Assembly (NCBI GenBank): GCA_019695185.1
Contig: JAIBAN010000005.1
Coordinates: 62,001 to 126,000, forward strand
Direction: 5' to 3'
Length of the DNA stretch: 64,000 bases
Origin: Blastocatellia bacterium
GTDB taxonomy: Bacteria > Acidobacteriota > Blastocatellia > Chloracidobacteriales > Chloracidobacteriaceae
The notes beneath the pieces are model-generated. The model saw only the letters and a program-made list of their open reading frames with translations, was not told the origin of the DNA and made no database searches. Made by a program: the position numbers and the translations under genes. Below, piece by piece: positions 17,966 to 44,605 of the stretch (its first letter is position 1; the number at the start of each line of letters is the position of its first letter).

Positions 17966-18121
17966 ATTTGAATTAAGAATTGAGAATTGAGAATTGAGAA
18001 TTGAGAATTGAGGTTAAAACCCGGTTCGTATTTTCATTGTTCTGTTTCTTAATACAATCGGAACCAGAACCCTTTTTTCTCAATTCCCAATTCCCAATTC
18101 TCAATTCTCAATTCTCAATTT
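17961..18121. repeat. GAATTGA heptamer arrays as inverted arms
   Basis: The left arm (17961-18012) has about seven GAATTGA-type units, including variants ATTTGA and ATTAAGA, and includes the trmL stop codon. The right arm (18079-18121) is the inverse complement, with two CAATTCC variants. A 66-nt unique spacer separates them. The right arm ends 14 nt before the next start codon. The arms could form a stem of around 40 bp. Confidence 0.9.
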
Positions 18122-22628: not shown

Positions 22629-22719
22629 TGAGGACTGAGGACTGAGGACTGAGAAAAGCTGGTATTCGTTGACCAAAATGGGCAAACTCAGTCCTCAGTC
22701 CTCAGTCCTCAGTCCTCAT
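22629..22719. repeat. GGACTGA heptamer arrays as inverted arms inside the DUF1800-DUF1501 operon
   Basis: Three units of GGACTGA (22629-22653) and four to five inverse-complement units (22687-22719) flank a 33-nt spacer. Read in the direction of the genes (minus strand), the arm nearest the DUF1800 stop has the TGA-bearing sense; it begins 18 nt after that stop. It is the only array here between two genes that clearly belong to one operon. Confidence 0.9.
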
Positions 22720-28765: not shown

Positions 28766-28889
28766 TTAAGAATTGAGAATTGAGAATTGAGAATTTCAAG
28801 ATTCGGTTCGGAATGACAACCCTGGTGAAGTCTGGTAAGCCTCAATTCTCAATTCTCAATTCTCAATTCTCAATTCTCAATTCTCAATT
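28766..28889. repeat. GAATTGA heptamer arrays as inverted arms between convergent genes
   Basis: About four units on the left (28766-28795) and seven inverse-complement units on the right (28841-28889) flank a 45-nt spacer. The left arm abuts the pip stop and the right arm contains the kgd stop codon. Each gene therefore reads first into the TGA-bearing sense of the repeat. It is likely to act as a bidirectional terminator if the hairpin forms. Confidence 0.92.
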
Positions 28890-36892: not shown

Positions 36893-39220
36893 TTATTCGT
36901 AACGAATGACTCCGGTCCGAATCATTTCCGATGTCAATGGATGGCCAAATTCCTTGGCCAACATGGAGGCGTCTTTCCCCTCGTTGTTCTTCAACTGCCG
37001 ATTGGCTTTGGCGCTGATTAGCACCCGCACCGTGTTGTCATGCCCGCCCATGGCGGCAAACATCAACGGAGTCATGCCACTGTCGGTCCGGACATCAAGC
37101 TGTGCTCCGGCTCTGACCAAAGCATCTGTGACGGAATCATGTCCCCCACGGGTGGCGTAAAGGAGCGGGGTCATTCCGGCCTTGTCCCGCACTTCGGTTT
37201 TGGCTCCGTATTTCAAAAGGGCGGCGGTCAGTTTGCTGTGCCCGCCCATGGCGGCCAAATGCAGGACCGTGTGATTTTCCGGGTCGGTCGCATTGGGGTC
37301 GGCACCGCGAGCCAGCAAAAGGGTCGCCTCATAGGTTTTTCCGGCCCGTGCATAGCCCAGTAATTGCTCATTAAGTTGAGGCGATGAATTTTGCACCGTT
37401 CCCGGATTGGGCGAAGTGGCTGGAGCATTGGTGGCGGCAATCCGGGAACGCTGGTTTTGTACGTCGCGGAAAGACTGTTCAAAATCGGTCTGAAGGCCCC
37501 CGTCCAGTTCATAACATTTTTGCAAATCTCGCCGGGCCTCGGTGTCACGGCTCATCCAGGCATAGGCAATCCCTCGATTTCCATACGCCTCGGCAAAATT
37601 GGGGTCCAGCCGGACTGCTTCGGAAAAATCATTCACCGCTGCCTGATAGTTTTGCTTTTTGGTATAAGCCAGACCTCTGGTATTAAGCGATTCCGCCGGG
37701 TCAGCCAGGGTTTTGGCGGCTTCGGTACAATCGGCGATAGCCCGGTCATAGAGCCCCAGCAAATACCCGACCCGACCCCGCCGGTCATAGCTCTGGGCGC
37801 GCAATTTGGCATCCGTATCGGCAAACCGGATGGCGTCGGTAAAATCAGCCAGCGCCCGCTCAAATTGTTTGAGATTGAGGTTACAGCGTCCGCTTCCATA
37901 AAAAGCCTGGGCGTTCCGGGGCTCAAGTCGCAAGGCATCGGAAAAGTCACGACTGGCGGTGTCCCAATCTTTGAGCCGCGAGTAGGCCACACCACGGGCA
38001 ATCAGAAAGGTGGCCGAATTGGGATTCAACCGAATGGCCGTATCATATTTTTGAATGGCTCCCTGAAAATCCCGATTGCGTGCCAGTTCCTCGCCTTCCC
38101 GAAAGCTTTGTTGGGCTGCTTCGGAATTATCCGTGCGGGAGGCGGGCAGGTTGCCGGTGTTGGTCTCAGGGCGTGGGCTGGTGGTCGGGTCTGGTTTGAC
38201 GGTTTCGGTGCGGGGAGGTTCGGTGCGGGCCGCTTCCGTTGTTTGAGCGGGTTGCGTTCCTGCCGGAGCAGCCTTGTAGTTAGGCCGAAAAACCAGAATC
38301 TGCTTCTCATAGTCCGCTTTCAAAGTTGGGTCAAGCTGGAAGCAAATCTCAAAATCCCGGTCGGCGTCCTTGTCATTGTTGAGCGCCAACTGGCAAAGCC
38401 CCCGGTTTCCATAGGCACGGGCGTTGCGGTTGTTGGTCCGGATGGCTTCGTCAAAATCCGGAACGGCTTCTTTGTATTTGGCCTGCCGCAGGCGGCAATA
38501 GCCTCGTCCGTAATAGGCTGAAGGGTTGTCGGGAGTCAGGCGGATGGCTTCCGTAAAATCCAAAATGGCCTTGTCATCCTGTTTCAGGTTGGTTTTGGCG
38601 TAGGCGCGATAGGTATAGGCAGTGGAAAATTTGGGGTTGATGCGGATGGCTTCGTCAAAATCCTTGATGGCTTTTTCATATTGCCCCAGAGCATTGTAAG
38701 AATATCCCCGGTTGTTAAACGGCATGGGGTCTTTGGGGTTGTTCCGAATGGATTCGTCAAAGTCCTTGATGGCTTCGGCATGTTTACCCAGTGAGCTGTA
38801 GGCCAGCCCCCGATTGTTATAAACCGTGGTCAGCTTGGGGTCCAGCCGGAGCGCTTCCGAGTAGTCTTTGATGGCATTTTCATATTGCCCCATGTCGTCA
38901 AACGTGTAGCCTCGGTTATGATAGGCCATGGCGTACTTGGGATTGATGCGAAGGGCCTCCGCATAGTCTTTCATGGCATTGTCATATTGCCCCAGGGTCC
39001 GAAAGCACCAGCCCCGCCAGTTGAAGGCGTCGGCAAAATCGGCATAGAGCTGGATGGCTTTGTCATAGGACTCAAGCGCGTCCTGTGTTTTGCCTTCGCC
39101 CAGCAATCGGTTTCCTTCCCGATAGGCCCGAACCGCCGGTTCCGATTGTGCAAAGGCGGCGGAATGGAAAACAATACAGAAACACGCAAGCACCACCATT
39201 TGAACCATGACTTTTTTCAT
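36893..39220 (-). CDS. Secreted TPR and ankyrin-repeat protein
   Basis: About 775 residues. The ATG at 39220 is preferred (GAGGTGA upstream; signal peptide VMVQMVVLACFCIVFHSAAFAQ). About nine TPR units follow (25-340), nearly all with the consensus AYHNRGYTFDDMGQYENAIKDYSEALRLDP. A Pro/Thr/Glu-rich linker (about 340-385), five or six further TPRs (385-580), and three to four C-terminal ankyrin repeats (640-770: NHTVLHLAAMGGHSKLTAALLKYGA and following) complete it. Both repeat types bind peptides, so this is a scaffold on the periplasmic side of the membrane. No enzymatic domain is seen. Confidence 0.88.
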   Translation of the reverse strand: MKKVMVQMVVLACFCIVFHSAAFAQSEPAVRAYREGNRLLGEGKTQDALESYDKAIQLYADFADAFNWRGWCFRTLGQYDNAMKDYAEALRINPKYAMAYHNRGYTFDDMGQYENAIKDYSEALRLDPKLTTVYNNRGLAYSSLGKHAEAIKDFDESIRNNPKDPMPFNNRGYSYNALGQYEKAIKDFDEAIRINPKFSTAYTYRAYAKTNLKQDDKAILDFTEAIRLTPDNPSAYYGRGYCRLRQAKYKEAVPDFDEAIRTNNRNARAYGNRGLCQLALNNDKDADRDFEICFQLDPTLKADYEKQILVFRPNYKAAPAGTQPAQTTEAARTEPPRTETVKPDPTTSPRPETNTGNLPASRTDNSEAAQQSFREGEELARNRDFQGAIQKYDTAIRLNPNSATFLIARGVAYSRLKDWDTASRDFSDALRLEPRNAQAFYGSGRCNLNLKQFERALADFTDAIRFADTDAKLRAQSYDRRGRVGYLLGLYDRAIADCTEAAKTLADPAESLNTRGLAYTKKQNYQAAVNDFSEAVRLDPNFAEAYGNRGIAYAWMSRDTEARRDLQKCYELDGGLQTDFEQSFRDVQNQRSRIAATNAPATSPNPGTVQNSSPQLNEQLLGYARAGKTYEATLLLARGADPNATDPENHTVLHLAAMGGHSKLTAALLKYGAKTEVRDKAGMTPLLYATRGGHDSVTDALVRAGAQLDVRTDSGMTPLMFAAMGGHDNTVRVLISAKANRQLKNNEGKDASMLAKEFGHPLTSEMIRTGVIRYE

Positions 39221-39411
39221 TGAATTCACCTCGGCTGGATTTTGTAGGTAATTCGGATGCACAAACATGACAAAAAGCTGTGTCGGACTACAGGGTAAAT
39301 AGTAAATGATGACTGGCAAATCATAAAAAAGACTTGGTTCCAGGTGCGCCAAAATCCGTCCTGAACCACGTGCCCATCACTCTTTACCTGTTATTTCAGA
39401 GATCAAACATT

Positions 39412-40659
39412 ATGACCCAACAAGGCAAACTGGCAATCCTGGTCGGGGGCGGACCTGCCCCCGGCATCAATGCGGTGATTTCTGCCGCCACAATTGAGGC
39501 CGTCAATTGTGGTTTTTCGGTTTTTGGCGTACAGGACGGCTTCAAATGGCTTGTCAAACAGGACGCGGCTAAAGTCCGCCCCTTGACCATCGAGGCCGTC
39601 TCCCGGATTCATCTCAGCGGTGGTTCCATTCTGGGAACTTCGAGGGAAAATCCGACCAAATCACCGGTTTCAATGCAGGCCGTGGTAACCACCCTGGAAA
39701 GTCTGGGGATTACACATCTGGTCACCATCGGCGGGGATGACACGGCCCTTTCCTCAAGCACCGTGGCGGAATTCACGCAAAACCGGATTCACACCGTCCA
39801 CGTTCCCAAAACCATAGACAACGACCTGCCGCTGCCGAAACACATTCCCACCTTTGGTTTTCAAACCGCCCGCCATGTCGGCACCGAACTGGTCCGAAAT
39901 CTGATGGAGGACGCCCGGTCAACCCGGCGCTGGTATTTCGTGGTGGCAATGGGGCGCAAAGCCGGCCACCTCGCCTTGGGTATTGGCAAAGCTGCCGGGG
40001 CCACCCTGACCTTGATTGGCGAGGAATTTGACCAGGACATCATTTCTTTTTCGCACATCTGCGACATTGTTGAAGGGGCCGTCATCAAACGCCGGGCCAT
40101 GGACCGTCGCTATGGTGTGGCTGTGCTGGCCGAAGGTTTGATTGAAAAACTGGACCCGGCGGAACTGGCCGAATTGCAGGATGTCGAACGTGACGACCAC
40201 GGCCACATCCGGTTTGCCGAGATTGACCTGGCTCGCAAGGTCAAGGCCGAAGTGCAGGGGCGGCTCAGTCAGCGCGGTATCCGCCTGACCATCACCAACA
40301 AAAACATCGGGTATGAATTGCGGTGTGCCGACCCGATTTCGTTTGACGCCGAATATTGCCGCGACCTCGGTTTTGCTGCCATCAAGTTTCTCTTGGGCGG
40401 CGGCAGCGGGGCCATGGTGAGCATTCAGGGGGGCAAACTGGTGCCGATTTCCTTTTCCGAGATTCGGGACCAGGCAACCGGAAAAACGGCGGTGCGACTG
40501 GTCAATCCTGACAGCGAAGGGTTCCGCGTGGCACGGGAATATATGATTCGGCTTGAAAAAGCTGATTTTGAACGGCAGTCATGGGTGGAACAACTGGCCA
40601 TCGCCGGAAATCTGACGGCTGATGAATTCCGTGCCAAATTCGGCTACTTGGGGAAATAA
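39412..40659 (+). CDS. Phosphofructokinase, pyrophosphate-type signature (first of a tandem pair)
   Basis: A 415-residue PfkA-family enzyme phosphorylating fructose 6-phosphate. It has GGGPAPGINAVI (phosphate-donor loop), IGGDDT at the position of GGDGS in ATP-dependent enzymes, and VPKTIDND where ATP enzymes have PGTIDND. Asp for Gly and Lys for Gly at these two sites are the known marks of pyrophosphate-dependent PFKs, so a reversible PPi-linked reaction is likely. MGRKAGHLALGIG binds the sugar. The ATG at 39412 is preferred over an upstream extension by homology to the N-terminus of the second copy. A second PFK and a K+ channel gene follow on the same strand. Confidence 0.9.
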   Translation: MTQQGKLAILVGGGPAPGINAVISAATIEAVNCGFSVFGVQDGFKWLVKQDAAKVRPLTIEAVSRIHLSGGSILGTSRENPTKSPVSMQAVVTTLESLGITHLVTIGGDDTALSSSTVAEFTQNRIHTVHVPKTIDNDLPLPKHIPTFGFQTARHVGTELVRNLMEDARSTRRWYFVVAMGRKAGHLALGIGKAAGATLTLIGEEFDQDIISFSHICDIVEGAVIKRRAMDRRYGVAVLAEGLIEKLDPAELAELQDVERDDHGHIRFAEIDLARKVKAEVQGRLSQRGIRLTITNKNIGYELRCADPISFDAEYCRDLGFAAIKFLLGGGSGAMVSIQGGKLVPISFSEIRDQATGKTAVRLVNPDSEGFRVAREYMIRLEKADFERQSWVEQLAIAGNLTADEFRAKFGYLGK

Positions 40660-40664
40660 CACAG

Positions 40665-40685
40665 TAACCGCGTATTTCGCGGTTA
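40665..40685. other. Stem-loop between the two PFK genes
   Basis: TAACCGCG (40665-40672) and CGCGGTTA (40678-40685) form an 8-bp stem with a TATTT loop, 5 nt after the first PFK stop and followed by an A-tract, not T. It cannot be a normal terminator on the plus strand. It may protect or process the polycistronic message. Confidence 0.5.
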
Positions 40686-40753
40686 AAAAAAATAAAAAAA
40701 TCAAAGACAGGGAAAACAGTCCTTCGGCTTTGTCCAAGGCAGAGAAGACACGT

Positions 40754-41998
40754 ATGTTGATTAAAAAAATTGGAATCATTGTGGGGGGCGGCCCTTCACC
40801 GGGAACAAACGGCGTCATTTCGGCGGTGGCCATTGAAGCTATCAAAGTTGGCTGCACGCCCATTGGGTTTCATGACGGGTTCGAGTGGCTGGCCCAACGG
40901 TATACGGACGAACAGCACGAGTTGACGATTGATGAGGTTTCACGCATTCACCTGGATGGGGGCGTGGTTTTGGGGACTTCCCGGACCGACATTGCGCATG
41001 ACGAGCAGAGTCTGGCCAATACGGTCGCCGCGTTGAAAAAGCTGGGAATTGAAGCTCTGGTCTGTATCGGCGGAGACGATATGGTTCGCAGCGCTGTGGC
41101 CATCGAACGCGCGACCAAGGGCAGCATTAAGGTCGTGCAGGTGCCGAAAAGCATTGACAACGATTTGTGGATGCCGCTGCCGGTGGTCACACTGGGCTAC
41201 GAAACCGCCCGCCATGTTGGGGTTGAAATGGTCAAAAACCTGATGGCGGACGCCAAAACCACAGGCCGCTGGTATCTGGCCGTGACGATGGGACGGCCCA
41301 CCGGACATCTGACTTTAGGGATTGGAAAAGCTGCCAGTGCCACCTGCACCATCATTCCAGAGGAATTTTCCCAGCCGACCATTTCGCTTTCCGACATTGT
41401 GGATATTGTCGAGGGGGCCATTATCAAACGCAAGGCTTTGGGGAGCAACAACGGCGTGGTGCTGCTGTCGGAAGCCCTGGTTGAACGGTTCAGCCCCGAA
41501 GAAGTGGCGGAGCTTCAGGATGTGGACCGGGATGCGCAGGGAAATATCCGCGTAACGGAAATTGACCTGGGCCGGAAAGTGAAAAGCGAGGTGCAAAACC
41601 GGCTGGAACGACGCAACATCAAGGTGACCGTGGTTGATAAAACCATTGGGTATGAACTCCGCTGTGCGCCGCCCATCCCGTATGATGCTGAATATGGCCG
41701 CGATTTGGGCTATTCCGCCGTCAACTATCTGTTACAGGGCGGTTCCGGAGCGATGGTAACCGTCCAGGGCGGAGAATCACTGATGGTGCCGCTTTCGGCA
41801 TTTTTGGACGAAGCCACCGGCAAAGGCCGTCAGCGGTTGGTGGAAATTGACACGGAAAGCTATCAGGTGGCCCGTGATTACATGGTGCGGCTTGGGGCGC
41901 GGGATTTTGCCGACCCGGAATTTCTGGAATTGTTGGCCAAAAATGCCAATCTTTCCGTGGCTGATTTCCAGCAACAGTTTATCCATCTGGCAAAATAA
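40754..41998 (+). CDS. Phosphofructokinase, pyrophosphate-type signature (second of a tandem pair)
   Basis: A 414-residue paralogue of the preceding gene. Corresponding motifs are GGGPSPGTNGVIS, IGGDDM and VPKSIDND, again the Asp/Lys combination of PPi-dependent enzymes. MGRPTGHLTLGIG and RLERRNIKVTVVDKTIGYELRC align with the first copy without gaps. The two differ at many positions spread along the chain, so the duplication is old and specialisation (regulation, substrate, or heteromer formation) is likely. The ATG at 40754 is preferred to an upstream Lys-rich extension. The K+ channel gene starts 5 nt after the stop, suggesting translational coupling. Confidence 0.9.
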   Translation: MLIKKIGIIVGGGPSPGTNGVISAVAIEAIKVGCTPIGFHDGFEWLAQRYTDEQHELTIDEVSRIHLDGGVVLGTSRTDIAHDEQSLANTVAALKKLGIEALVCIGGDDMVRSAVAIERATKGSIKVVQVPKSIDNDLWMPLPVVTLGYETARHVGVEMVKNLMADAKTTGRWYLAVTMGRPTGHLTLGIGKAASATCTIIPEEFSQPTISLSDIVDIVEGAIIKRKALGSNNGVVLLSEALVERFSPEEVAELQDVDRDAQGNIRVTEIDLGRKVKSEVQNRLERRNIKVTVVDKTIGYELRCAPPIPYDAEYGRDLGYSAVNYLLQGGSGAMVTVQGGESLMVPLSAFLDEATGKGRQRLVEIDTESYQVARDYMVRLGARDFADPEFLELLAKNANLSVADFQQQFIHLAK

Positions 41999-42003
41999 CA
42001 CCA

Positions 42004-42960
42004 ATGAGCGCCAACCCGCCGCAAAATGGAGAGGGACCCCGTGACCTGGGATTTGGCTCGGTGGTCGCACGCGAAAGCCGCCAGCGCCTGCTCAATCGGG
42101 ACGGCAGCTTTAACGTCCGCCGAAACGGGCTGAGATTTTGGGAATCGTTAAGCCTCTATCACTCGTTGCTGACGATGTCGTGGGTCAGGTTCAATCTGGT
42201 GTTGGTTGGTTCATTTTTGGCCATCAATTGCATCTTTGGGATTTTCTTCATGCTCTGTGGCCGGCAGGGTTTGCTGGGACTGCCGACAGGAGGTTGGGTG
42301 GATTGGTTTTCCGCCTGCTTTTTCTTTAGTGTTCAAACCTTTGGCACGATTGGATACGGCGTGATGAGTCCGGTTACGAAAACGGCCAATCTGGTGGTCA
42401 CGCTCGAATCGTTGGTTGGCTTATTGTGGGTGGCGATTGCCACGGGCCTGCTGTTTGCCCGGTTTTCCCGCCCTTCGGCCAAAATCATGTTCAGCCAAAA
42501 AGCCATCATTGCACCTTACCGGGGCATGACCGCTTTTGAATTCCGCATTGTCAATGCCCGCAGCAACCAGATTATTGAGCTTGAAGCCAAAGTGCTGTTC
42601 AGCCGCCTGGTGGACGAAAACGGGCGGCAGGTGCGACGTTTTGATGCTTTGTCATTGGAACGTCAGAAAGTGGTCTTCTTTCCTTTGAGCTGGACCATCG
42701 TTCATCCAATTACTGAAACAAGTCCGCTTTTTGGCCTTGCCGGGGACGACCTGCGCCGGAGTGAAGCCGAATTTCTGATTTTGCTGACCGGCATTGATGA
42801 AACCTTTTTACAGACGGTCCACACCCGGACCTCTTATAAAGCCGATGAAATTGTCTGGAATGCCAAATTCAGTTCCATTTTCAATCCCCATCAGGCAGAT
42901 GAACCCATCACCATCAACATTGACCGGCTCAGTGAAATTGAAGGGGCGGAAGAGTTTTGA
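42004..42960 (+). CDS. KirBac-type inward-rectifier potassium channel
   Basis: A 318-residue membrane channel. An N-terminal slide helix precedes M1 (about 62-85, FNLVLVGSFLAINCIFGIFFML); the pore helix and K+ selectivity filter TIGYG are at 115-119 (FFFSVQTFGTIGYGVMSP); M2 is about 128-153. The cytoplasmic beta-sandwich (about 160-318) contains the KirBac pattern LMVNARSN-like region FRIVNARSNQIIELEAKVLFSR and SPLFGLAGDDLRRSEAEFLILLTGIDETF. A tetramer in the inner membrane is expected. It is the last gene of an operon with two PFKs. The final codons GAG TTT TGA are themselves one unit of the following GAGTTTT array. Confidence 0.93.
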   Translation: MSANPPQNGEGPRDLGFGSVVARESRQRLLNRDGSFNVRRNGLRFWESLSLYHSLLTMSWVRFNLVLVGSFLAINCIFGIFFMLCGRQGLLGLPTGGWVDWFSACFFFSVQTFGTIGYGVMSPVTKTANLVVTLESLVGLLWVAIATGLLFARFSRPSAKIMFSQKAIIAPYRGMTAFEFRIVNARSNQIIELEAKVLFSRLVDENGRQVRRFDALSLERQKVVFFPLSWTIVHPITETSPLFGLAGDDLRRSEAEFLILLTGIDETFLQTVHTRTSYKADEIVWNAKFSSIFNPHQADEPITINIDRLSEIEGAEEF

Positions 42961-43130: not shown

Positions 43131-44465
43131 ATGTATCTCAACCGGCTGACAAACGGTTTCCTCATTGAACTGCGGGAAAACCTGATTTTAGGGGTTGGCG
43201 GGGAGGGAAAGGTTTTCGCCCTGCCGCCTGCTCCTGATTTGGTGGCCAAGGTTTACCACAGCCCCAAACCGCAGCATGAAGCCAAATTACGGGCCATGCT
43301 CGCCTACGCCGTGACCGACCCGATGCAGGACCTGGGGCATACTTCGATTGCCTGGCCGGTTGATTTGCTGGTGAGTCATGCTGGTTCAGCAAAGGTTTCA
43401 GGGTACCTGATGCCCCGTGTGGCAGGGATGCGACCGGTATTCACTTTTTACAACCCGGCCAGCCGGTTGCGTGAATGCCCGTTGTTTGGGTATCGGTATC
43501 TGCTGCGGACGGCACGAAATCTGGCCACGGCAGTTCAGACCCTGCATGAATTGGGCATTGTGATCGGAGATGTCAACGAATCCAATATTCTGGTTTCGGA
43601 AAATGCTCTGGTGACGCTGGTTGATACTGATTCGTTTCAAATCAAGGACAAGCACACCTCGGAAATCTACCGTTGTCCCGTGGGAAAACCGCAATTCACC
43701 CCTCCCGAACTGCAAGGTCTGAGTTTTAAGGAAATAAACCGCAGTATTGAGCATGACCTGTTCGGTTTGGCAATTCTGTTGTTTCAGCTTTTAATGGAAG
43801 GAACCCATCCCTTTGATGGGGTTTACCAGGGTGGAGGGGAACCGCCCTTGCACGAATCCAGAATCCAAGCTGGAGATTTTCCTTATGCCCGCCAGCCGCG
43901 CAAGTTGTACCAGCCCAAACCTTCATCCCCGCCTTTTGAAATGCTGTCACCTGCGCTCCAGGCATTGTTTCGCCAATGTTTTGAGGATGGTCATCAAAAT
44001 CCTGGATTACGGCCTACGGCTTTGGTCTGGCGCGAAATGCTGGCGGAAGCCGAAACCCGGCTCACGGTTTGTGCCAAAAACCCGCAACATCACTTTGCCA
44101 ATCACAATTTGCATTGTCCCTGGTGTCAGCGAACCGAAAAATTAGGGGGAAGGGACCCGTTTCCCTCCCGTGAAGCCGTGCGGCAAGGGTTGCCGGAACG
44201 CAAATCAAAAGCCGCTCAGGCAACGCTGCCTCCGCGCAACCCGGCCTCCGCGCGGGCAGCCGTCGGCCTGCGGGCAAAAGCAGCGGCAGCGGCAGCGGCA
44301 GCCCAGGGGGTTCAGACTTCACAGCCACTGTTTCCTGCCCCGGCACCCCAAGCCGAGCAGGTGGGATGCAGCGGGTGCATTGTTTTTGTTCTGGTGCTGG
44401 GAAGCTGGGTTGGGATAATTCTGATTTTTCTGTGCCTGTTGGTTTTTTCCCGCAGACCGTTTTAG
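43131..44465 (+). CDS. Atypical Ser/Thr kinase-like protein (YegI-like) with C-terminal membrane anchor
   Basis: A 444-residue protein with an altered protein-kinase domain (about 15-300): glycine loop LGVGGEGKVFALP, K40 in LVAKVYH, catalytic loop GIVIGDVNESNILV with D147 and N152 in place of HRDxxxxN, and metal-binding D165 in VDTDSFQI instead of DFG. The substrate-loop segment YRCPVGKPQFTPPELQG is like E. coli YegI. After the kinase come a CPWC knuckle (NHNLHCPWCQR), an Ala/Arg-rich linker and a single C-terminal hydrophobic helix (CIVFVLVLGSWVGIILIFLCLLVF), so it is tail-anchored with the kinase in the cytoplasm. YegI-like kinases usually have PP2C and VWA partners, which are absent here. 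Confidence 0.82.
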   Translation: MYLNRLTNGFLIELRENLILGVGGEGKVFALPPAPDLVAKVYHSPKPQHEAKLRAMLAYAVTDPMQDLGHTSIAWPVDLLVSHAGSAKVSGYLMPRVAGMRPVFTFYNPASRLRECPLFGYRYLLRTARNLATAVQTLHELGIVIGDVNESNILVSENALVTLVDTDSFQIKDKHTSEIYRCPVGKPQFTPPELQGLSFKEINRSIEHDLFGLAILLFQLLMEGTHPFDGVYQGGGEPPLHESRIQAGDFPYARQPRKLYQPKPSSPPFEMLSPALQALFRQCFEDGHQNPGLRPTALVWREMLAEAETRLTVCAKNPQHHFANHNLHCPWCQRTEKLGGRDPFPSREAVRQGLPERKSKAAQATLPPRNPASARAAVGLRAKAAAAAAAAQGVQTSQPLFPAPAPQAEQVGCSGCIVFVLVLGSWVGIILIFLCLLVFSRRPF

Positions 44466-44469
44466 GAGA

Positions 44470-44605
44470 AGGACTGAGGACTGAGGACTGAGGACTGAGG
44501 ACTGAGTATTTCCCGTTGCTGATAGGGTTTTCTCAGATAATCAGGAAAGAAAGCCGTTTTTCTCAGTCCTCAGTCCTCAGTCCTCAGTCCTCAGTTGGTC
44601 CTCAG
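44470..44605. repeat. GGACTGA heptamer arrays as inverted arms between convergent genes
   Basis: Five GGACTGA units (44470-44506) and about five inverse-complement units with one interruption (44562-44605) flank a 55-nt spacer. The kinase stop is 4 nt before the left arm, and the M14 peptidase stop (minus strand) is 5 nt from the right arm. Both genes meet the TGA-bearing sense first. Confidence 0.9.

Follow-up and report, generated by a model that had tools for sequence, protein, structure and literature searches.

The window, a stretch of 64,000 nt of a Blastocatellia genome comprising 8.33 Mb in 222 contigs, contains two consecutive genes for phosphofructokinases (PFK) of the PfkA type, which are followed by a gene for a K+ channel. 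The arrangement is as follows:

39412-40659, + strand: PFK-A, predicted PPi-type PfkA of the Thermotoga type, 415 aa, ATG to TAA, motifs GGDDT and PKTIDND
40660-40753, no strand assigned: spacer between PFK-A and PFK-B, 94 nt, with a hairpin at 40665-40685
40754-41998, + strand: PFK-B, predicted diverged PPi-PFK paralogue, 414 aa, motifs GGDDM and PKSIDND
42004-42960, + strand: KirBac-type inward rectifier K+ channel, 318 aa, ATG to TGA, filter TIGYG

The initial annotation had described two PfkA paralogues with GGDD and PK-[TS]-IDND signatures and a KirBac gene starting 5 nt after the second of them. Both statements are exact, PFK-A containing PKTIDND and PFK-B PKSIDND, and the gap between PFK-B and the KirBac gene on the same strand extending from 41999 to 42003. 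For PFK-B, the ATG at 40754 was chosen as the best start, since its orthologues, the second genes of the pairs in other Blastocatellia, begin 8 to 13, mostly 10, residues ahead of the GGGP motif.

Both proteins match the Pfam PFK family, PFK-A with 179 bits and PFK-B with 166 bits (cut-off 30.9), and they are 53% identical to each other over 410 residues. With the NCBIfam model NF041103, 'PFKA_PPi_Ttgales', PFK-A scores 632.7 bits and lies above the cut-off of 550, while PFK-B, although matched over the full length of the model (1-406 of 407), falls narrowly below it with 539.3 bits and is therefore classed as a diverged relative and not as a member. The best relative of PFK-A with a solved structure is PPi-PFK1 of Trichomonas vaginalis (9dqm, 1.3e-117), which PFK-A matches along its length. 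GGDD, PKTIDND and the residues for fructose 6-phosphate (F6P) are common to PFK-A, this enzyme and the Thermotogales-type PPi-PFKs of NF041103. Judged by these features, PFK-A is an ordinary Thermotoga-type PPi-PFK.

PPi-dependent enzymes are recognized by Asp at position 104 of the E. coli enzyme, Lys at 124 and a residue larger than Gly at 108 (PMC12203962). The Asp of GGDD, K124 and S108 were each found in 21 of 21 A rows and in 21 of 21 B rows of the alignment, these and all following counts out of 21 including the duplicate L082/L093. Since both paralogues keep the Asp in GGDD and the Lys in PK, a simple division into an ATP and a PPi enzyme is not indicated, and both probably use pyrophosphate rather than ATP. 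A further criterion, Thr directly after GGDD, was added here because of its invariance in the A and single-copy rows of this alignment; it is present in all 45 of these rows and in none of the 21 B rows. Given the loss of this Thr beside the donor site in B, a subtler donor difference between A and B may exist. Two further PFK genes of the same genome, with the motifs GGEG and GGDG, are predicted to be of the ATP type by their GG[DE]G motif.

On the + strand, an A-run rather than a T-run comes after the hairpin in the spacer, which is hence not a terminator for this operon. A scan for promoters and terminators gave results at chance level.

Membership of the channel in the KirBac family follows from a score of 77.5 bits with PF17655 (IRK_C, cut-off 22.5) together with the TxGYG-type filter TIGYG. 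Its best match among solved structures is KirBac3.1 (PDB 4lp8 and others; 1.5e-64), with which it has the transmembrane and IRK_C domains and the TxGYG filter in common; it differs from KirBac3.1 only in its place beside the PFK pair, and no sequence novelty was seen. KirBac-family channels without TxGYG, designated NirBac, are reported to be non-selective (PMC4607889), and TIGYG in the present channel most naturally suggests selectivity for K+. It is the single KirBac of this genome.

On the other side of the pair, a divergent gene for a protein with TPR and ankyrin repeats (36893-39352, - strand) has its likely start, judged by eye, at about 39220 and thus faces PFK-A across about 190 nt. 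Downstream of the KirBac gene, a protein-kinase-like gene (43131-44465; Pkinase 39 bits) follows after 170 nt; its product has a hydrophobic segment at the C-terminus.

Conservation of the PFK pair and of its KirBac neighbour

The presence of PFK and KirBac genes was surveyed in 162 genomes of the Blastocatellia and in 297 genomes of the phylum, a match with E<=1e-60 being counted as PFK-B-like. In the class, such PFKs were detected in 32 genomes and KirBac in 39; the respective numbers for the phylum sample are 29 and 33. Among the 32 class genomes, 26 harbor the A/B pair and six, all of the family with code f81, have one copy, these single copies being 44-45% identical.

In 23 of the 26 carriers, A immediately precedes B on the same strand of one contig. 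The B start of G416 and the A end of G415 were found at contig ends by tblastn in the right order, raising the number to 25. In the 26th carrier, G420, a contig ends 45 nt away from each of the two genes; this agrees with adjacency without proving it. The proposal that the two PFKs belong together was thus upheld, the pair being kept in one order across six family-level groups. Between the stop of A and the most probable start of B there are -4 to 490 nt, with a median of 66 (23 spacers). A scan of contigs from named close relatives, which include Chloracidobacterium sp. and MAGs of Blastocatellia and Acidobacteria as PFK-B relatives, revealed 17 loci, of which all 14 from Acidobacteriota are paired and three, from Myxococcales and Ignavibacteriaceae, are single-copy. 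The named PFK-B relatives also served to place the genome of the window in the acidobacterial class Blastocatellia. In the phylum sample, one copy is likewise found in 21 of 29 matching genomes; a single PPi-PFK gene suffices outside the class.

The genes flanking the pair vary between genomes and are shared only by near-identical genomes, apart from scattered matches. Among ten genes beside the pair in other genomes, a Pfam scan detected unrelated functions (aminotransferase, HD domain, VWA, dihydroxy-acid dehydratase, ABC ATPase, AAA) or none. Reshuffled surroundings of an intact pair indicate either selection to stay together or a very young pair; the divergence of the carriers, with lowest pairwise identities of 65% for A and 59% for B, favours selection. 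Tight coupling is apparently not essential, since about 490 nt separate the two genes in G267 and L092. In G267, a gene for a HicA toxin, preceded by a small ORF, lies between PFK-A and PFK-B (L071:7185-7632). This stretch is likely a recent insertion, because G421, which has the same genus code, contains only 81 nt at this position.

A membrane pyrophosphatase was detected in all nine carriers tested, including one in the genome of the window, in line with an economy based on PPi. The H_PPase matches of the carriers (e.g. L101, L102, L103) fall into two score classes of about 870 and 610 bits. The window's genome and G051 have the class of about 870 bits, and G227 has both classes near each other on one contig.

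For the channel, a different picture emerged. KirBac is present in nine of the 26 pair carriers (G000, G051, G267, G283, G416, G417, G419, G420, G421) and adjoins the pair in one, G000, which is the genome of the window. In the eight others it is located on a contig separate from the pair, the remaining 17 carriers have no KirBac, and 30 class genomes contain KirBac but no PFK pair. Among the 14 genomes of the order, G051 is the only other one with both; its KirBac is 62% identical and lies on a different contig. The KirBac neighbourhoods of three relatives (L073-L075) have no gene cluster in common with the window region except KirBac itself.

It had been suggested that the pair is coupled to the K+ channel, and conservation of the three-gene order was named as a check. 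Neither the coupling nor the order was borne out: with one adjacency in 26 carriers and an unlinked KirBac in G051, the order is not kept in relatives, the very outcome specified in the initial annotation as speaking against it. The linkage is restricted to this genome, or shared at most with close relatives outside the search, and the conserved unit is the A/B pair and not a three-gene operon. That the channel works with the PFKs as a sensor of metabolic or membrane state, coupling PPi glycolysis to K+ flux, would agree with the 5-nt gap on the same strand and with the location of the genome's single KirBac at this locus, but the distribution described above, including the missing linkage in the nearest relative with both, makes it very improbable. 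The position of KirBac beside the pair is most plausibly a chance event in a single genome, and the channel no part of the PFK system. The gene probably landed downstream of the pair in this lineage alone, where, given the 5-nt gap, it is likely to share a transcript with PFK-B. The K+ channel link, potentially the surprising part of the arrangement, was not found beyond this genome.

Origin and divergence of PFK-B

Maximum-likelihood trees were midpoint-rooted and excluded the six f81 single copies. A formed one group with a support of 98/97, B one group with 100/100, and A and B together one with 90/89, with the caveat that such a group amounts to a clade only when the root falls outside it. 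The support for the A+B branch rose to 97/92 in the tree without long or redundant rows. From the alignment, L083 and L085 were dropped, being the same records as L066 and L071. The partial B rows L087, L088 and L092 as well as E. coli were left out of the first tree, and these together with L001, L002, Trichomonas, L062, L051 and L081 out of the second. In the first tree, the stem of B has a length of 0.65 and that of A 0.24. Mean identities within the groups are 71% for B and 74% for A, and dN/dS values from seven genome pairs range from 0.06 to 0.27 for A and from 0.08 to 0.27 for B; both genes are under purifying selection. Taken together, tree, stem lengths, identities and dN/dS values indicate that a single duplication in the ancestral lineage of these Blastocatellia gave rise to A and B, followed by faster change in B and subsequent constraint.

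The unequal divergence is also apparent at near-invariant columns, which were compared without L093 because it is identical to L082. In B, 12 of 95 such columns are replaced relative to A and the single-copy proteins, in A 2 of 84 relative to B and the single-copy proteins. Replacements in B (E. coli numbering) include Thr105 by Leu, Val or Met in 21 of 21 rows, T125S, Asn74 by Asp and Pro75 by mostly Ile or Val in 19 of 21 rows each, and the Gly following Glu222 by Ala or Ser in 18 of 18 rows. They are not significantly clustered at the donor site, three of the 12 lying within one residue of the contacts considered (p = 0.40). The residues D103, D104, K124, D127 (the general base), D129, R162, M169, G170, R171, E222 and R252 are kept in all B rows reaching them; the R243 column, which is misplaced around an insertion in the alignment, was left out. 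With the catalytic and F6P columns intact, F6P binding is expected for B, and catalysis is conceivable.

Possible functions of the unequal pair

The enzymes and the channel by themselves are ordinary; what is new, in a modest but real way, is the conserved unequal PPi-PFK pair, for which no description was found in the titles and abstract openings of the open-licence papers searched. The favoured explanation, to which we would assign an even chance, is a hetero-oligomeric PPi-PFK encoded by two genes, with B as a modified partner subunit. A and B would be transcribed together and both would take PPi as donor in the reaction F6P + PPi <-> FBP + Pi, A presumably representing the ancestral, fully active subunit. 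The active site of PFKs lies between subunits, Arg162 being supplied by the neighbour (PMC12203962). As both proteins keep this residue, the sites in an oligomer made of A and B would be composite.

Another explanation, favoured less and yet quite conceivable, is that one operon specifies two separate homo-oligomeric PPi-PFKs with different substrates, reaction directions or preferred donors; B could, for example, act on another sugar phosphate or prefer the reverse reaction. The B-specific changes near the donor and sugar sites (Thr105 in 21/21, T125S in 19/21, the Gly after Glu222 in 18/18 rows) argue for it, as does the constraint on B, which is as strong as that on A by dN/dS. The canonical residues for PPi and F6P, on the other hand, are all kept. 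Adjacency of A and B also fits two homomers, but two homomers by themselves leave unexplained why it was retained. A plain duplication for dosage with equivalent copies would be consistent with the PPi-PFK signatures of both proteins; it is hardly credible in view of 53% identity, the long B stem, the fixed B-specific residues and the retention of both copies in 26 of 26 carriers.

Regarding sugar phosphates, replacement of transaldolase by a route via sedoheptulose bisphosphate was considered and rejected. There is no association, TAL_FSA being present in 23 of 26 carriers and 127 of 136 non-carriers. Class I FBPase, the only class searched, was found above the cut-off in two of 26 carriers (G051 and G403) and eight of 136 non-carriers, and is absent from the genome of the window.

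Plant PFP is a heteromeric alpha/beta PPi-PFK of the long subtype, whose alpha subunit tunes its partner's affinity, direction or regulation. Like A and B, its two chains are paralogous and of unequal divergence. In the favoured hetero-oligomer, B would tune affinity, direction or regulation in much this way. The further step, that B serves specifically to regulate the enzyme or tune its affinity and that the PPi-PFK of Blastocatellia is a hetero-oligomeric, possibly allosteric enzyme that evolved independently as a bacterial counterpart of plant PFP alpha/beta, can be suggested only tentatively and is rather doubtful. All characterised bacterial PPi-PFKs are described as non-allosteric in PMC12203962, which counts against the hetero-oligomeric reading. 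The plant enzyme has fructose 2,6-bisphosphate as an activator (PMC12203962), and the complex of A and B is a proposed one. The Trichomonas enzyme 9dqm is described as a homotetramer (PMC12203962), while the carriers described here have a second, diverged paralogue next door. Two PFK-A paralogues with differing regulation in one bacterium are likewise known from Synechocystis, but PFK-A1 and PFK-A2 use ADP, unlike the PPi-type A and B, and their locus tags, sll1196 and sll0745, are very dissimilar (PMC11609450).

PPi-PFKs set how near to equilibrium glycolysis runs. An unequal pair of genes for such enzymes, retained side by side in a bacterial lineage ever since a single duplication, provides a simple way to examine how regulation or a second substrate is acquired by an enzyme that works reversibly with PPi.

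Heptamer repeats in the window and in A-B spacers

The window contains tandem arrays of heptamers in inverted pairs, which are mostly intergenic (17976-18120, 22629-22718, 28769-28889, 44470-44595 and others). Counting exact runs, 11 arrays with a period of seven were detected, while no other period between 4 and 15 accounts for more than two, the multiple 14 excepted. Three consecutive copies of TGAGGAC occur 688 times in the genome, compared to 0 for the reversed control. Such arrays resemble the STRR heptamers of cyanobacteria. In many relatives, the A-B spacers (e.g. in L113, L114, L117, L119, L088 and L070) consist of long hairpins of heptamer repeats with a genome-specific sequence, and among 17 A-B spacers of at least 40 nt, lag 7 ranked first in 12 when compared to mononucleotide shuffles.
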